This document shows positions 56,083 to 62,934 of a stretch of DNA of 64,000 bases, one piece after another. The DNA is taken from NCBI RefSeq assembly GCF_025642115.1, contig NZ_CP106753.1:2627501-2691500 (forward strand), read 5' to 3'. Numbering within the stretch: position 1 is the first letter of the stretch; each line of letters begins with the position of its first letter. The position numbers were made by a program, and so were the translations under genes. This DNA is from Chitiniphilus purpureus. GTDB lineage: Bacteria; Pseudomonadota; Gammaproteobacteria; Burkholderiales; Chitinibacteraceae. The notes under the pieces are model-generated. The model was not told the DNA's origin. It ran no database searches and was given only the letters and a program-made list of their open reading frames with translations.

Positions 56083-56972
56083 CCGTGCATGCTCTCGCGT
56101 ACCAGCTCCGCGTAGAGCGGCGCATGGTCGGAGAGCCCGGTCCAGGGCAGGCCACGCAGCACATGGGCCACTTCGACCTTGAAGCCACGCACGTACATGC
56201 GATCCAGCGTCAACACCGGCAGGCGGGCCGGAAAACTGCGCGCCGGTGCGCCATGCAGCGTCTCGAAGGCCTCGATCAGCCCCAGCTCGTGCGCCATGAA
56301 CGGCGTGGCCTCGCAACGCCAGTCGTTGAAATCGCCGGCCAGCACCACCGGTGCATGCACCGGCACCTCGGCCAGCACATACTCGGCCAGCAACTTGAGC
56401 TGCCGGCGCCGATCCTGCGCGCGCAGATTCAGATGGACCGACAGCGCATGCAGCGGGCGCTGCCAATCCGGCACTTCGAGCACCGCATGCAAGAGCCCGC
56501 GCTGCTCGTAGCGGTGCAGCGTCAGATCGTGGTTGTCCCAGCGCCGCACCGGAAAGCGCGACAGCAGCGCATTGCCGTGATGGCCATGGCGGTAGTTGGC
56601 GTTGCGGCCATAGAGCGCCGTCAGCTCGCCGCCGGCCAGGTACTCGTGTTGCGGATCGATGGGCCAGTAGGCGAAGCGCCGGGCATGCCGTTGATGCGCC
56701 CCTTGCACCTCCTGCAGCAGCACGATGTCCGGGACCAGCCGGCTCAGCGCCGCGCGCAGCTCATGCACCACCAGCCGGCGGTTGAAGACGGAGAGGCCCT
56801 TGTGGATGTTGTAGGACGCGACCCTTAGTTTGTTTTCCAATTGAATCAACGTCTTGAAATGGACAATGACCGGAGCCGGGCCCGGCCGGCATGAAGGCGG
56901 CCGGCCACCGGTGCACGCCAGCGCTTGCGTGGCGTACTGAAATGATATGGGGACACCACGGGCGAAATCCAC
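56079..56972 (-). CDS. Endonuclease/exonuclease/phosphatase-family protein (YbhP-like)
   Basis: Up to 297 aa; the conserved part starts at LRVASYNIHKGLSVF (about residue 49), with the EEP motifs QEVQGA, SVHLNLR, LAGDFNDWR, TLDRMYVRG and SDHAPL. It overlaps clsB, which suggests a role in the same lipid pathway, perhaps as a phosphatase. The longest frame begins with GTG at 56972, which has little support; a start near 56850 (TTG/CTG region) would remove a non-family N-terminal extension. The true start is unresolved. Confidence 0.85.
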   Translation of the reverse strand: MDFARGVPISFQYATQALACTGGRPPSCRPGPAPVIVHFKTLIQLENKLRVASYNIHKGLSVFNRRLVVHELRAALSRLVPDIVLLQEVQGAHQRHARRFAYWPIDPQHEYLAGGELTALYGRNANYRHGHHGNALLSRFPVRRWDNHDLTLHRYEQRGLLHAVLEVPDWQRPLHALSVHLNLRAQDRRRQLKLLAEYVLAEVPVHAPVVLAGDFNDWRCEATPFMAHELGLIEAFETLHGAPARSFPARLPVLTLDRMYVRGFKVEVAHVLRGLPWTGLSDHAPLYAELVRESMHG

Positions 56973-57120: not shown

Positions 57121-58107
57121 TCAGCGCGTCGGCGCGCGGACGATGTCCTGCAGGGTCTGGACCTGCTCATGCTGCTGCTCGCGCAGCGCGGGCCGGCCAC
57201 GCGACTGGCTTTGCAGCATCCGCAGTTCGGCGGCGGCGGCCATGCGCTCGCGCCGCTGCGCCGGAGAGTCGCGGCTGGGCGTCGGCGGCCGCATCTGGTC
57301 CAATGCGCTGTTGATCCGGCGGCCGAAGGCGCTGACCAGGCTTTCGGTCACTTCGAAACCGTTGTGCCGGCTAAAGGGCCTGTCGGTGCGCAAGCCATGC
57401 GGCATTTCGCTGAGCAGTTGCTGGCCACTGGTGCCGATCTCGCGGAAAACCTGCCCGGGCGGGACATTGGTCTTGCCAAAGCTGGGCGTGGAGGCGCCAT
57501 AGGTCGCATCGGTCCGCATGCCCGGCTGCCGTCCCATGTCGACGAGCGCGAACTGGGTGTTGTCCCCCAGATGCTGCACGCGCTGCGCGACGGTATGGCC
57601 CGGCGCCCGGGCCAGATCCCAATTCACCGAGTTTCTGATCCCCTGCTCCACGGCACGGTTGAATTCCTGGTCCGATCCCGAGAACCCCGGCGACTTGAGC
57701 AAATCCGCCTTCCCCCTGAACAGTTGGGGAAAGCGCTGCATCATGGCCTCGTCGTTGCGTTGCTGGGTGGTCTTGGGCACCAGTGAGTACGCATCGCCGT
57801 AGAAACCGGGTCGCTGCACACCGCCCTGCCTGGCACTATCGACCCGATCCGCCTGCTCGGTGGTGTGCCTCATCCCCAGGTATCGCGGCTGCTGCTGATC
57901 GGCCAATGACCGCAGGAAGCCGATGTTCTGATGACTCAGCGGACCATGGCGGTCGCCATGGGTCTGATCGAGCCGATGCCCCTGCCCTGAGAACGGCACT
58001 ACCGGTTGCCCGACGCGCGGATGCTGGGGTGCCACCCAGCTCAGCATGCCGTTCTGGATGATCGGCCGCCTGGCGCCGCCCGCTCCCTGATTGCCCCCAC
58101 TGTCCAT
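57121..58107 (-). CDS. Unrecognised 328-aa Gln/Arg-rich protein
   Basis: I do not recognise this protein. It is soluble, with no signal peptide or membrane segment. It is rich in Gln, Arg, Pro and Gly, with disordered ends (MDSGGNQGAGGARRP at the start, RGRPALREQQHEQVQT near the end) and a more ordered middle (FPQLFRGKADLLKSPGFSGS and SEMPHGLRTDRPF). The GAGG Shine-Dalgarno six bases before ATG 58107 supports expression. No operon partner. The composition resembles secreted effectors of type III or VI systems, but no secretion gene is in the window. Confidence 0.6.
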   Translation of the reverse strand: MDSGGNQGAGGARRPIIQNGMLSWVAPQHPRVGQPVVPFSGQGHRLDQTHGDRHGPLSHQNIGFLRSLADQQQPRYLGMRHTTEQADRVDSARQGGVQRPGFYGDAYSLVPKTTQQRNDEAMMQRFPQLFRGKADLLKSPGFSGSDQEFNRAVEQGIRNSVNWDLARAPGHTVAQRVQHLGDNTQFALVDMGRQPGMRTDATYGASTPSFGKTNVPPGQVFREIGTSGQQLLSEMPHGLRTDRPFSRHNGFEVTESLVSAFGRRINSALDQMRPPTPSRDSPAQRRERMAAAAELRMLQSQSRGRPALREQQHEQVQTLQDIVRAPTR

Positions 58108-58748
58108 ATCCGCCTCGCTCCTGTCATCGGCCCGCTCTTCAAGCTAGCAGCGCCACGCCAGGGCGCAAGGCACGCCGCTTCGGCACTGCGCGCCGGTGGC
58201 ACCTGGCAATCGCGGCCCGACTCACCCGCTGACTTTCTTCAACCCCTGCCCTTTGCCACAGCTGGTCTATTGTCTTACTTACCCTTGCAGTCGGTCATGC
58301 CATTGGAATCATCAGCACTGCCGGTCTGGTGGCTGCCCTGACGATGCCGGAGCACCGGATTTGCCAACGCAAGCCAACGCTCCGTGCGGCATAAACGCTA
58401 CATCGACTGCTCGCCTCAATGGATTCAAAGCCATTTTCCAAGGGGCTTGTGCAAGACATATTGCATATATCGCGCCAGCCTGTTTGCATAAAACCTGTTT
58501 ATATTCTTACATTTAAGTTTCTTAATACTTTATTATATTTAAAACAACGGCATACTTTTCAAAAACTGACAATAACACCTGAATTTTTCTTTCCATTAAA
58601 TTTCCTTAATAGACAAATTTCCAATGGATCGGCAGCTTAGGCGCCCTGTCGGGGTGCTGGCCACGGCACGCCTTGCCGGTGGAGCAGCCCGGCCAGGGCC
58701 TGGCTGCCGGCATTCCAAGCAATGGATTCAATTTCCGGGCGAAACAAC
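58108..58748. other. Gene-free stretch with an AT-rich core upstream of the sugar dehydrogenase
   Basis: 641 bases. The middle, about 58480-58625, is sharply AT-rich in contrast to the GC-rich surroundings, with runs such as CTTTATTATATTTAAAAC. A plus-strand frame at 58419-58640 (73 codons) has no Shine-Dalgarno and no recognisable content. Best read as a regulatory region, possibly bound by an H-NS-like protein, or as a scar of recombination. From 58640 on GC is high again. Confidence 0.55.
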
Positions 58749-60029
58749 ATGAACGTGATTGCAGTGGTGGGGCTGGGCTATGTCGGCCTGCCTTTGGTGG
58801 TCGAATTCGGCAAACATGCGCGGGTGGTGGGTTTCGATATCGACCAGACCAAGGTGGAGCTTTGCGTGCGGGGCAAGGATCCGTCGCAGGAATTGAGCGA
58901 CGATGAGATGGCGGCAGCGATCCACGCCGGCTTTTCAGCGGACGAAACCGTGCTGGCTGAAGCCGACATGATCATCGTGGCAGTGCCGACCCCGGTGGGC
59001 GAAGCGAACATCCCCGATTTCTCGCCGTTGATCTCGGCCAGCCGCAGCGTGGGCCGGCAGATGAAAAAAGGCACCACGGTGGTGTATGAATCCACGGTCT
59101 ATCCCGGTGCCACCGAGGAAGTCTGCATTCCGGTACTGGAACGGGAATCCGGGTTGACCTGGAAAAAGGATTTCTTTGTCGGCTATTCGCCCGAGCGCAT
59201 CAATCCGGGTGACCGCGAACATACGCTGGCCAATATCGTGAAAGTGGTCTCGGGCGATACGCCCGAGACGCTGGAACGGGTGGCAAGGCTCTATGAAATG
59301 ATCGTCAAGCCCGGCGTGCATCGCTGCCACAGCATCATGGCCGCCGAAGCGTGCAAGGTGATCGAGAACACGCAGCGCGATCTCAATATCGCGCTGATGA
59401 ACGAACTCGCGCTCATCTTCGACCGGCAGGGCATCGATACCTCCGAAGTGCTCAAGGCCGCCGGCACCAAATGGAACTTCATGAAGTTCAGCCCTGGGCT
59501 TGTCGGTGGCCATTGCATCGGCGTCGATCCCTATTACCTGACGCACAAGGCCGAGATGTTGGGCTACCACCCGCAAGTGATCCTGGCCGGCCGCCGCATC
59601 AACGATGGCATGGCCAAGTTCATCGCCGAGAAGACGGTCAAGACCATGATCGCCGCCGGCAATTACGTCAAGAATTCACGCGCCATCGTGCTGGGGCTCA
59701 CGTTCAAGGAAAACTGCGCCGATCTTCGCAATTCCAAGGTGGCCGACGTGATCAACGAGCTGAAAAGCTATGACGTCGAGGTCTTCGTCCACGACCCGTA
59801 TGCCGATCCCGAGGAAGCCATGCGCGAATACGGGGTCAAGCTTTACGCCTGGGATGATCTGCCGCGCGCCGATGCCATCGTCGCCGCAGTGCCGCACCGC
59901 GCGCTGCTCGAGCGCGACAGCGCCGATTTGCGCAAGAAGCTGATCAAGGGCGGCTGCTTCATCGACGTCAAGGCCAGCTTCGACACGGCCGGCTTTGACG
60001 ACATGGGCATCCACGTCTGGCGCTTGTAG
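58749..60029 (+). CDS. Nucleotide-sugar dehydrogenase, TviB/WbpO type
   Basis: A 426-aa UDP-sugar 6-dehydrogenase. NAD motif GLGYVG at residues 8-13, YESTVYPGATEE, then SPERINPGD, VIENTQRDLNIALMNELA and the catalytic Cys256 in GLVGGHCIGVDPYYL. These segments closely follow TviB (UDP-GlcNAc to UDP-GlcNAcA) and WbpO rather than UDP-glucose dehydrogenases. The product would be a uronic acid precursor for capsule, O-antigen or exopolysaccharide. Start 58749 (MNVIAVVGLG) is the family N-terminus. It heads the right-end gene cluster. Confidence 0.9.
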   Translation: MNVIAVVGLGYVGLPLVVEFGKHARVVGFDIDQTKVELCVRGKDPSQELSDDEMAAAIHAGFSADETVLAEADMIIVAVPTPVGEANIPDFSPLISASRSVGRQMKKGTTVVYESTVYPGATEEVCIPVLERESGLTWKKDFFVGYSPERINPGDREHTLANIVKVVSGDTPETLERVARLYEMIVKPGVHRCHSIMAAEACKVIENTQRDLNIALMNELALIFDRQGIDTSEVLKAAGTKWNFMKFSPGLVGGHCIGVDPYYLTHKAEMLGYHPQVILAGRRINDGMAKFIAEKTVKTMIAAGNYVKNSRAIVLGLTFKENCADLRNSKVADVINELKSYDVEVFVHDPYADPEEAMREYGVKLYAWDDLPRADAIVAAVPHRALLERDSADLRKKLIKGGCFIDVKASFDTAGFDDMGIHVWRL

Positions 60030-60092: not shown

Positions 60093-61163
60093 ATGAACAT
60101 CGATATCCAGGTTGCAGCACAGCGCCAGACCAAGCCGGCGCTGAGCGAGGTGCAGTTCGGCTCACACGTCTCGGACCATATGTTTGTGGCCGAGTACGAT
60201 GCCGGACGCGGCTGGCACAGCCCACGCGTGATGCCCTATGGCGAATTCCGGCTTGATCCGCGCGCACTGGTGCTGCATTACGGCCAGAGCGTGTTCGAAG
60301 GGCTCAAGGCCTATCGCCAGGCGGATGGCGGCATCGCGCTGTTCCGCCCCGGCTGCAATGCGGCACGGCTGAACACGTCCTGCGCCAGGATGGCCATGCC
60401 GGCGCTGCCCGAGGCGCTGTTCATCGACGGCCTGCAGCGGCTGGTGGCGCTGGAGGCGGCGTGGGTGCCCGATACCAGCGGCGCCGCCCTGTATGCGCGG
60501 CCGGTGATGTTTGCCAACGAACCGGTGCTGGGGGTGCGGCGCTCGTCCCGCTATGTGTTCTGCATCATGCTGTGCCCGGTACCGCCCTATTTCCAGATCG
60601 GCGATGCGCCGTTCAAGCTGGTGGCGCGCGAGGATTGCGCCCGCACCGCCCAGGGCGGCTGCGGCGACGCCAAGACCTCGGCCAACTACGGGCAGACCAT
60701 CGTCGAGCTGGAACGCGCACGCCGCGAAGGCTACGACAACCTGTTGTGGCTGGACGCCGCCGGGCACCGTCTGATCGAGGAAGCGGGCATCACCAACGTG
60801 TTCATCCGCTACCAGGACAAGGTGGTCACGCCACCGCTGAGCGGTCGCATCCTGCCCGGCATCACGCGCGACAGCGTGATCCGCCTGCTGCGGCATCAGG
60901 GCGTTCCGGTGCTGGAGCAGGAGACCACCATCGACGGGCTGGTCGCCGATATCGACGACGGCCGGGTGCGTGAGATCTTCCTGACCGGCACCGCCACCAT
61001 CGTCGCACCGGTGGGCGAGATCGGCTTTCGCGACCGCCGCCACACACTCGCCCCGGTGGCCCCGGACGACAGCATGGCCGCCGCGCTGTACCGCACGCTG
61101 ACCGCGATCCAGTACGGCCGGGCCACGGACGAGTTCGGCTGGATGCAGCGGGTGCCGCTATGA
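60093..61163 (+). CDS. Branched-chain amino acid aminotransferase-like protein, divergent
   Basis: A 356-aa class IV aminotransferase of the longer BCAT type. FEGLKAYRQADGG and LPGITRDSVIRLL are typical. The PLP Lys194 lies in GGCGDAKTSANYG, where relatives have GGTGAAK-x-GGNYA, so several conserved residues differ around the lysine. EEAGITNVF replaces the usual E-E-M-G-G-M-N. The enzyme should be active, but substrate may not be Leu, Ile or Val. Its stop overlaps the start of the next gene (ATGA), so the two are translationally coupled. Confidence 0.85.
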   Translation: MNIDIQVAAQRQTKPALSEVQFGSHVSDHMFVAEYDAGRGWHSPRVMPYGEFRLDPRALVLHYGQSVFEGLKAYRQADGGIALFRPGCNAARLNTSCARMAMPALPEALFIDGLQRLVALEAAWVPDTSGAALYARPVMFANEPVLGVRRSSRYVFCIMLCPVPPYFQIGDAPFKLVAREDCARTAQGGCGDAKTSANYGQTIVELERARREGYDNLLWLDAAGHRLIEEAGITNVFIRYQDKVVTPPLSGRILPGITRDSVIRLLRHQGVPVLEQETTIDGLVADIDDGRVREIFLTGTATIVAPVGEIGFRDRRHTLAPVAPDDSMAAALYRTLTAIQYGRATDEFGWMQRVPL

Positions 61164-61666
61164 ACCACGATCTGGAACACCGGTCCGCGCTCGCCTTGCA
61201 AGAGGCGCTGCACGAGGTCGCGTGTCGGGCGGACCGTTTTTTCACCGGCACCAGCGTGGTGGTATGCCATACGCTGGATGGGCTGCCGTATCACCCGATG
61301 AACGAAGGCTGGCCGGTCGAGCCGGAGCTTGGCCTTGCCGACAACCTCTTGACACTGGCGCATCGCGACAGCCCGTACCACGATGGTTTCCATCTGCTGA
61401 CGCCCGATCTGCGATTCATCAAGGTGGCCTGCTATCTGGCACCGGGCATTCCCGATGAGCCGCCGCGGGTCTCGTTTGCCGGGCGCGGCAGCCGGTTTTC
61501 CACCGCGTATTTCATGTCGCTGCTGCGGCCGGTGGTCTGTGTCGGCATCGTCGGCATCCAGCGTGATGTCACGGTATTCCGGCAAGGCACCATGCTGGCG
61601 GCACGCCCGCCCTGCCGGGGCATGCCACCGCCGCATGCGGGCCGGCTGCTGGCGCAGTGTTCGTGA
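61160..61666 (+). CDS. Protein resembling the diadenylate cyclase (DAC/DisA_N) fold, altered active site
   Basis: A 168-aa protein. Residues ~70-145 line up with the core of DAC domains: SPYHDGFHLL for the T-P-L-H-D-G-A motif (residues 71-80), then KVACYLAP for the A-A-A-C-Y-L-P strand, GRGSRFSTAY for G-T-R-H-R-A-A (108-117), and CVGIVGIQRDVTVFRQGTM for the final strand with the S-V-x-x-x-G-x-L end. The DGA motif is DGF and the RHR motif is SRF, so c-di-AMP synthesis is unlikely as it stands; a ligand-sensing role is the simplest guess. The match is from memory without a profile search. Start overlaps the aminotransferase stop. Confidence 0.55.
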   Translation: MNHDLEHRSALALQEALHEVACRADRFFTGTSVVVCHTLDGLPYHPMNEGWPVEPELGLADNLLTLAHRDSPYHDGFHLLTPDLRFIKVACYLAPGIPDEPPRVSFAGRGSRFSTAYFMSLLRPVVCVGIVGIQRDVTVFRQGTMLAARPPCRGMPPPHAGRLLAQCS

Positions 61667-61722: not shown

Positions 61723-62934
61723 ATGAACGACAACACCACCATGAATCTGCGCACCTTCCTCACGCTGGAGCAGCTGAAGCGGGATTTCTCCTGGCAATCG
61801 GTGATGGCCGGCCTCGTGGCGGTGATCGTCGGCTACGCCGGCCCGACCGTGCTGGTATTCCAGGTCGCGGAAAGTGCCCATCTTTCCAACGCGCAGATCA
61901 TTTCCTGGCTGTGGGCCTATTCGATCGCCGCCGGCCTCACCACCATCGTCGCCAGCCTGTGGTACCGGATGCCGCTGATCACCGCCTGGTCCACACCGGG
62001 GATCGCCTTCCTGATGACGGCGATGGTGGGCGTGCCGCTGTCCGAGGCGATCGGCGCCTTCGTGCTGTCCAATGTGCTGGTCACGCTGATCGGTGCATTC
62101 GGACTGCTGCAGAAACTGGTGCGCTGGATTCCGCTGCCGGTGGCATCCGCGCTGAACGGCGGCATCCTGGTGGCGTTCGCGCTCGGCGTCATCAGCTCGC
62201 TGCAGCAACAGCCGCTGCTGGTGGGCGGCATGATCCTGGCCTTCTTCCTGGTCCGGCGTTTTTCCCCACGCTGGGCCGTCGCCGCGGTACTGGCGGCCGG
62301 CACCGCGCTATGCCTGCTGCTGGACCAGCTGGACCTGGCCGCCCTGTCGGTATCGATGGCCAGTCCGGTCCTGACGCTGCCCACCTTCACCTGGCATGCC
62401 ACCATCAACATTGCCATCCCGCTCACCGTGCTGGTGCTCACCGGTCAGTACCTGCCGGGTTTCGCAGTGCTCAAGACCGCAGGTTATGAGCCGCCGGTGG
62501 ACAAGGTCGTCACGCTATGCGGCACCGGCTCGATCCTGGTGGCGCCGTTCGGCTGCCACAACATCAACCCTTCGTCGATGATCGCCGCCATCGTCGCCGG
62601 ACCCGAGGCGCATCCGGACAAGACCCGCCGTTATGTGGCCGCGGTATGCGCCGGTGTGATCTATCTCGTGTTCGGCACCTTCGCCTCGACCTTTGTCAGC
62701 CTGTTCGCCAGCCTGCCGCGGGAAGCCGTCGCGGCATTGGCGGGCCTGGCGCTGCTGTCGGCCATCGCCTCGTCATTCGACGCCGCCTTCGCCAACAGCA
62801 AGGGCTCGCTTGCGCCACTGGTGGTGTTCGTCATCGCCGCCAGCGGCATCACCGTGCTGGGTGTGGGTGCGGCCTTCTGGGCCATCGTCAGCGGCATCGT
62901 GGTGTGCCACGTGCTGGAACGCAAAGCCCGCTGA
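61723..62934 (+). CDS. benE: BenE-family transporter
   Basis: A 403-aa membrane protein with about 12 segments. The N-terminus DFSWQSVMAGLVAVIVGYAGP, then PLITAWSTPGIAF and GTGSILVAPFGCHNINPSSM are typical of BenE (benzoate:H+ symporter; xanthine/uracil permease fold). No benzoate catabolic genes are visible nearby, so benzoate as substrate is unproven; export or import of a metabolite from this cluster is equally possible. Start 61723 has an AAGGTAG Shine-Dalgarno; it begins 56 bases after the DAC-like gene. Confidence 0.85.
   Translation: MNDNTTMNLRTFLTLEQLKRDFSWQSVMAGLVAVIVGYAGPTVLVFQVAESAHLSNAQIISWLWAYSIAAGLTTIVASLWYRMPLITAWSTPGIAFLMTAMVGVPLSEAIGAFVLSNVLVTLIGAFGLLQKLVRWIPLPVASALNGGILVAFALGVISSLQQQPLLVGGMILAFFLVRRFSPRWAVAAVLAAGTALCLLLDQLDLAALSVSMASPVLTLPTFTWHATINIAIPLTVLVLTGQYLPGFAVLKTAGYEPPVDKVVTLCGTGSILVAPFGCHNINPSSMIAAIVAGPEAHPDKTRRYVAAVCAGVIYLVFGTFASTFVSLFASLPREAVAALAGLALLSAIASSFDAAFANSKGSLAPLVVFVIAASGITVLGVGAAFWAIVSGIVVCHVLERKAR

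Follow-up and report, generated by a model that had tools for sequence, protein, structure and literature searches.

The question raised by this locus is what a protein resembling diadenylate cyclases (DACs) does directly behind a branched-chain aminotransferase (BCAT) in Chitiniphilus purpureus. A first-pass annotation of the window (the whole stretch of 64,000 nucleotides that was analysed) had described a BCAT-like enzyme whose stop codon overlaps by four bases the start of a 168-residue protein with degenerate DAC motifs. Both open reading frames and the overlap were found where they had been placed (Table 1), and the upstream protein exceeded the curated cut-offs of NF009897 (402.6 bits; cut-off 307) as well as TIGR01123 (330.3 bits; cut-off 250.05). 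The earlier reading of DGF and SRF at the DAC motif positions was also correct: the translation contains YHDGFHLL (aa 73-80), ACYLAP (aa 90-95) and GSRF (aa 110-113).

Table 1 Features of the BCAT/DAC-like locus, in window numbering
Feature	Position	Strand	Remarks
Nucleotide-sugar dehydrogenase, TviB-like	58722..60029	+	UDP-GlcNAc C6 dehydrogenase model 459.9 bits, below cut-off of 592
BCAT type II (ilvE_II / NF009897), 356 aa	60093..61163	+	Curated models
ATGA overlap, BCAT stop / DAC-like start	61160..61163	+	4 bases
PanS-family (DAC-like) protein, 168 aa	61160..61666	+	ATG..TGA; Pfam, phmmer, alignment and profile evidence
HDGFH motif, aa 74-78	61379..61393	+	Invariant in 32/32 family rows; counterpart of canonical-DAC DGA
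G-S-R, aa 110-112	61487..61495	+	G and R fixed in 32 rows; counterpart of CdaA G-T-R
BenE-family transporter	61723..62934	+	TIGR00843 356.5 bits, cut-off 203.4
Glycosyltransferase family 2 (GT2), 693 aa	62987..64000	+	Continues to 65068, beyond the window
Esterase	65196..65999		Outside the window, after GT2
FMN 2-hydroxyacid dehydrogenase	66012..67187		Outside the window, after the esterase

Family membership of the DAC-like protein

Comparison of the 168-residue protein with the Pfam DAC family PF02457, which had been proposed as a check, gave a divided result: a match at E = 1.9e-4, which at 21.5 bits stays below the curated cut-off of 27. In a phmmer search of the PDB sequences (E up to 10) the protein matched chain A of 37jy, "Panoptoo PanS synthase", at E = 3.2e-12, and the sole other match was unrelated (E = 1.7). 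The residues printed for the 37jy chain are those of the Rhizobium etli Mim1 plasmid protein WP_155249473 (L007:2977-3420). A profile of 29 effector-linked PanS members, the window protein excluded, recovered the window protein at E = 2.8e-30 and the proteins of two similar clusters, in Azospirillum and Marinobacter (see below), at 1.3e-35 and 9.5e-32. None of 900 shuffled sequences was reported by this profile at E up to 10; the family match of the 168-residue protein exceeds chance.

PanS relatives in genome contigs were collected by means of two short motifs, by which more divergent members would be missed, and 28 loci were obtained. The window protein and 26 of these make up alignment A4, from which L023 (frame-shifted) and L033 (a near-copy) were omitted; a larger alignment of 32 rows, used for the tree, omits five near-copies or frame-shifted rows (L006, L023, L029, L033 and L037). 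Searched against the PDB sequences, the A4 profile found PanS at E = 1.7e-50, then 7dfx (E = 4.8e-5) followed by 7dg0 and further diadenylate cyclases, among them 8ofg (E = 8.3e-4), and only one of the 17 sequences reported at E up to 1 was not a DAC (4yde, E = 0.058). The homology to DACs claimed at first reading was borne out in this way. A match to the Pfam DAC family at E up to 0.01 was obtained for 15 of 27 PanS-family members.

Twelve columns are invariant in A4, and the same twelve in the 32 rows: F28, G30, H74, D75, G76, F77, H78, P95, G110, R112, A116 and S120. The window protein keeps all of them; it is itself among the rows, but the other rows are fixed there too. Because these residues are kept at an identity of only 21-30% between the window protein and the 26 other rows of A4, the pocket is under constraint. 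DGF and G-x-R, being invariant across the family rows, represent the normal form of this family. The motifs can thus be called degenerate relative to PF02457 only; as a statement of decay the term does not hold. On the evidence of its sequence, the 168-residue protein is a DAC homologue of the PanS family and not a decayed canonical diadenylate cyclase. A canonical c-di-AMP synthase was rejected on the replacement of DGA by DGF and of RHR by RFS and on the PF02457 score under the cut-off; a decayed pseudogene was rejected on the retained invariant residues and the coding-like base composition.

A study on DACs gives the motifs of three DAC classes, including DGA and RHR, and describes Thr102 of CdaA as binding the ATP phosphate, and His104 and Glu124 as binding phosphate and metal (PMC7288161). 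Position 111 of the window protein, the counterpart of Thr102, is Ser in all three BCAT-linked proteins, which puts a hydroxyl at the phosphate-binding Thr102 site, and Gly (21 rows) or Ala (8 rows) in the 29 effector-linked rows. By our reading, His104 and Glu124 have no counterpart in the window protein. The RHR histidine is absent from 30 of the 32 rows in total, the window protein included, and present in L002 and L038. In the tree of the 32 rows one branch, with support 86/81 and recovered in 88% of 200 bootstrap trees, sets the three BCAT-linked proteins apart from the rest; the first of these support values lies below the usual 95% mark, and a long-branch warning includes two of the three proteins. 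The window and Azospirillum proteins share a branch with support 99/97.

Neighbours of other PanS relatives

In 27 of the 28 genome-contig loci the PanS-like gene is followed by a Cap15-like gene, as judged by tblastn with five Cap15-like proteins. Three of these five queries were scanned with Pfam and all matched PF18153, the Cap15 receptor domain; one score is above the cut-off and two are below it. Within 10 kb or less of flanking sequence, 18 of these 27 loci also gave a CD-NTase match. Plasmid searches returned 14 matching records; of the seven that were opened, six have a Cap15-like neighbour and one, from Azospirillum sp. B510, has not. The Cap15-like neighbour is also present in genomes G010 and G264 and in all three viral contigs that carry a relative of the DAC-like protein. 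Effector-linked loci thus number 27 + 6 + 2 + 3 = 38 (some of them near-copies) versus three with a BCAT, and both partners together were seen in none of the loci examined.

The Panoptoo layout is recognisable at the sequence level across the Pseudomonadota, as well as in a single Bacteroidota bin (L038). The pair of PanS-like and Cap15-like genes adjoins CBASS genes in L004, L005, L007, L008, L012, L015 and others; these comprise a CD-NTase and, in most cases, a phospholipase as well. A doubled effector, with Cap15-like matches on both sides of the PanS-like gene, occurs in L009:2224-4049 (a Shewanella baltica plasmid) and L032:9384-11007. Among the literature matches listed, no paper on Panoptoo itself was found.

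The stretches around the three BCAT-linked genes (L003, L018 and the window locus, L010) gave no match to Cap15-like proteins or CD-NTases. A first search for Cap15 matched in none of 14 control genomes; G010 was then added as a positive control and matched at 28.7 bits, and the genome of C. purpureus gave no PF18153 match. No SMODS cyclase match was found in this genome. A second DAC match was likewise not found at E up to 0.01, which fits the earlier remark that c-di-AMP systems are not expected here. A Panoptoo defence pair was rejected for the window locus, which has no Cap15 or CBASS match, and so was a phage gene, as the phage collection gave no match at E up to 0.01.

The metabolic cluster

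The neighbourhood search for conserved BCAT/DAC-like pairs, suggested by the first-pass annotation, was positive: the BCAT/DAC-like pair is conserved in three distant bacteria. Genes for the BenE-family transporter, GT2, esterase, BCAT, DAC-like protein and nucleotide-sugar dehydrogenase are common to the window locus, a plasmid of Azospirillum sp. B510 (L003) and Marinobacter sp. F3R11 (L018), and the metabolic cluster is known from these three. BCAT and DAC-like genes are adjacent in all of them. They overlap by four bases in the window and in Marinobacter, whereas in Azospirillum they are separated by 1 base (GTG start) or 4 bases (ATG start). In the window the two proteins are probably translationally coupled through the stop-start overlap. 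The gene order in Azospirillum and Marinobacter is BenE-GT-EST-BCAT-DAC, then dehydrogenases (GT, GT2; EST, esterase), versus sugar dehydrogenase-BCAT-DAC-BenE-GT-EST-FMN dehydrogenase in the window. BCAT-DAC and BenE-GT-EST are retained in both orders and hence are two blocks that stay whole. Three-way identities are 47-62% for GT, 49-64% for EST, 52-60% for BCAT and 53-62% for BenE, compared to 33-54% for the sugar dehydrogenase and 32-44% for the DAC-like protein, which is less conserved than the first four and about as variable as the dehydrogenases.

All three cluster BCATs have the lysine of the motif A-K-T-[SA]-[AG]-N-Y, which we take for the PLP lysine. The next closest sequence to the window BCAT, among the best 25 of 39 plasmid records, shares 45.2% identity with it. 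The genome holds two weaker BCAT matches elsewhere (30% identity over residues 33-313, E = 6e-20; a short one of 40%, E = 6.8e-5), and the window copy is therefore probably accessory. The Marinobacter nucleotide-sugar dehydrogenase scores 604.6 bits with the UDP-GlcNAc C6 dehydrogenase model, above its cut-off of 592. Each cluster also has a 2-hydroxyacid dehydrogenase. In the window and in Marinobacter it is an FMN enzyme, the two sharing just 30% identity; in Azospirillum it is of the non-homologous Ldh_2 type. The window enzyme also scores above the cut-off of the general L-lactate dehydrogenase model (NF008398, 423.2 bits; cut-off 376), which makes its membership of the cluster less sure. 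If it does belong there, the use of three different enzymes for the same type of reaction would point to 2-hydroxy acid oxidation beside the transaminase as the conserved step. On the Azospirillum plasmid, pAB510a, an in-frame TAG (L003:991-993) cuts off the first ~50 codons of GT2; the remainder can start at a GTG one codon past it, and a sequencing error, a start shift or a broken gene may be involved.

The cluster is rare. GT2 searches matched only the genome of C. purpureus itself, whether among 300 genomes of the order (E up to 1e-30) or among 369 of the class or 398 of the phylum (both at E up to 1e-20), these samples overlapping. GT2 was found in one plasmid record, that of Azospirillum, and in no viral contig. 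The esterase matched four plasmid records, Azospirillum at 64% and the other three at 33-36% identity, and the Marinobacter BCAT matched 26 phage records, from which no further cluster emerged. The PanS-family profile matched 2 of 398 genomes of the phylum, and the window DAC-like protein matched 2 of 61 relatives, C. purpureus being one of the two in both cases. A DAC-like gene in such a cluster was found in none of the literature matches listed.

In two congeners the DNA match stops at an endonuclease/exonuclease gene near window position 56850; no cluster protein was found within 20 kb around that gene, and neither congener matched the DAC-like or GT2 protein. This marks the cluster as an acquired or differentially lost segment. 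It is probably mobile; there are transposase-like genes close to the cluster in Azospirillum and in Marinobacter, and a second Azospirillum ORF that was scanned gave no match. The GC content is 0.57-0.60 in the 1-kb steps from 58001 to 60000 versus 0.64-0.72 in the other steps between 50 and 76 kb, and this low GC over the sugar dehydrogenase and the stretch preceding it may reflect a separate origin of that gene. Between the endonuclease/exonuclease gene and the cluster, an ORF of 328 aa on the minus strand (57121-58107) has coding-like base composition but matched no Pfam family (E up to 0.001). The 20 kb stretch holds no tRNA, and its repeats suggested no boundary; an Rfam scan returned nothing, and promoters and terminators were predicted no more often than in shuffled sequences.

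Possible roles and comparison with known systems

For the DAC-like protein, we prefer a role in nucleotide synthesis or nucleotidyl transfer that serves the pathway of this cluster to that of a c-di-AMP sensor or a CBASS guard. We give an even chance to the reading that it is a PanS-family nucleotide enzyme, a fixed part of a rare operon of biosynthetic type, whose nucleotidyl transfer serves the pathway. Probably made in step with BCAT via the stop-start overlap, the protein would most likely, as a dimer, bind NTPs in the DAC pocket and perform nucleotidyl transfer, resulting in a cyclic or linear dinucleotide or in nucleotidylation of a pathway intermediate. The product would be an input to the sugar/amino-acid pathway or a gate on it, being used by or regulating BCAT-centred steps, and would not restrain a Cap15-like effector, unlike the supposed role of its defence relatives. 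Nucleotide chemistry serving the pathway itself is suggested because the operon lacks an effector and the genome lacks Cap15, SMODS and second DAC matches. Further support comes from the name synthase given by the depositors to the nearest solved relative, 37jy, from the 12 invariant residues and the grouping of the three Ser111-carrying proteins, and from the recurrence of the six homologous genes plus a 2-hydroxyacid dehydrogenase in three bacteria, with a BCAT-DAC adjacency that survives rearrangement. Against this reading, the RHR histidine and the metal-binding Glu have no counterpart, so that the putative catalysis rests on the depositors' label; the DAC-like proteins are less alike than GT, esterase, BCAT and BenE (32-44% versus 47-64% identity), the clusters number three and the branch support is under 95%.

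The main rival, possible though doubtful, is a non-catalytic nucleotide-binding regulator, close to the sensor proposed at first reading: it would respond to a nucleotide, cyclic dinucleotides included, and control BCAT by touching it directly. In its favour, the DAC-like gene stays beside BCAT in 3 of 3 clusters, overlapping it in two, despite the reshuffling around the pair, and neither the histidine of RHR nor the glutamates of SEE, both typical of canonical DACs, were seen in the window protein. However, no DAC or SMODS match was found elsewhere in the genome, and the histidine is missing also in PanS, a labelled synthase.

Unlikely, but taking the metabolic idea furthest, is a DAC-like synthase turned biosynthetic enzyme that makes the nucleotide portion of a small molecule for export, or joins it on. 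This molecule would combine a nucleotide with two further parts: an N-acetyl-hexuronic acid, through the TviB-like dehydrogenase, GT2 and esterase, and an amino or hydroxy acid, through BCAT and the 2-hydroxyacid dehydrogenase. A nucleoside-antibiotic-like pathway would then make use of the DAC-like family. To our knowledge, this family is otherwise known only from signalling and phage defence.

Quite improbable is a Panoptoo-like guard, in which a constitutive cyclic nucleotide restrains a harmful cluster enzyme or an unlinked protein until phage nucleotide-destroying enzymes release it. The 38 effector-linked relatives each adjoin a Cap15-like gene, and Panoptes follows such logic: its Cas10-like cyclase constantly makes a cyclic dinucleotide that holds a Cap15-like effector inactive (PMC12657218; PMC12657230). 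Panoptoo, judging from its layout and name, presumably works likewise with PanS. The genome of C. purpureus, however, has no Cap15 or SMODS match, the three cluster stretches have no Cap15-like or CD-NTase match, and the transporter, GT and esterase are unlike effectors. Least probable is a defence gene that landed once in a mobile cluster and is carried without function; the rarity of the cluster, the transposase-like genes near two of its copies and the lower conservation of the DAC-like gene would allow it, but the protein retains all 12 residues that are fixed in the family, and the gene keeps its place behind BCAT in three bacteria at 32-44% identity.

If the DAC-like protein indeed works within the pathway, DAC-like cyclases are metabolic tools, beyond second messengers and defence signals, and the compact seven-gene cluster, for which no described product was found, becomes a target for discovery. 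The three effector-free members, which keep all invariant residues and have Ser at the presumed phosphate site, form a natural test of the residues needed for PanS chemistry. The tie of a protein whose relatives mostly belong to apparent virus-defence pairs to an amino-acid enzyme, within a rare sugar/amino-acid cluster, may hint at a new, non-defence use of a nucleotide-handling protein.

Burroughs and others reportedly described, in 2015, DAC-like sensor families with CBASS-type systems. The upstream enzyme agrees with type II BCATs, being over both curated cut-offs (NF009897 and TIGR01123). With CdaA, CdaM and DisA (PF02457) the window protein shares a profile relation and the order of HDG, C-Y-L strand and G-x-R; it differs by DGF for DGA, RFS for RHR, the lack of SEE and a score under the Pfam cut-off. 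Panoptes (mCpol/OptS and 2TM-beta/OptE) resembles the other PanS members in pairing a cyclase-like with a Cap15-like gene, often beside CBASS, but its cyclase is Cas10-like and not DAC-like, and the window locus lacks the Cap15-like gene. Panoptoo PanS (37jy) belongs to one family with the window protein, whose aa 15-144 are covered by the match, shares the 12 invariant residues and is likewise a stand-alone domain of similar size. The window protein differs from it in sequence (27-29% identity), in having Ser111 instead of Gly or Ala, and in its partner: a BCAT with a metabolic cluster takes the place of the Cap15-like gene and CBASS.
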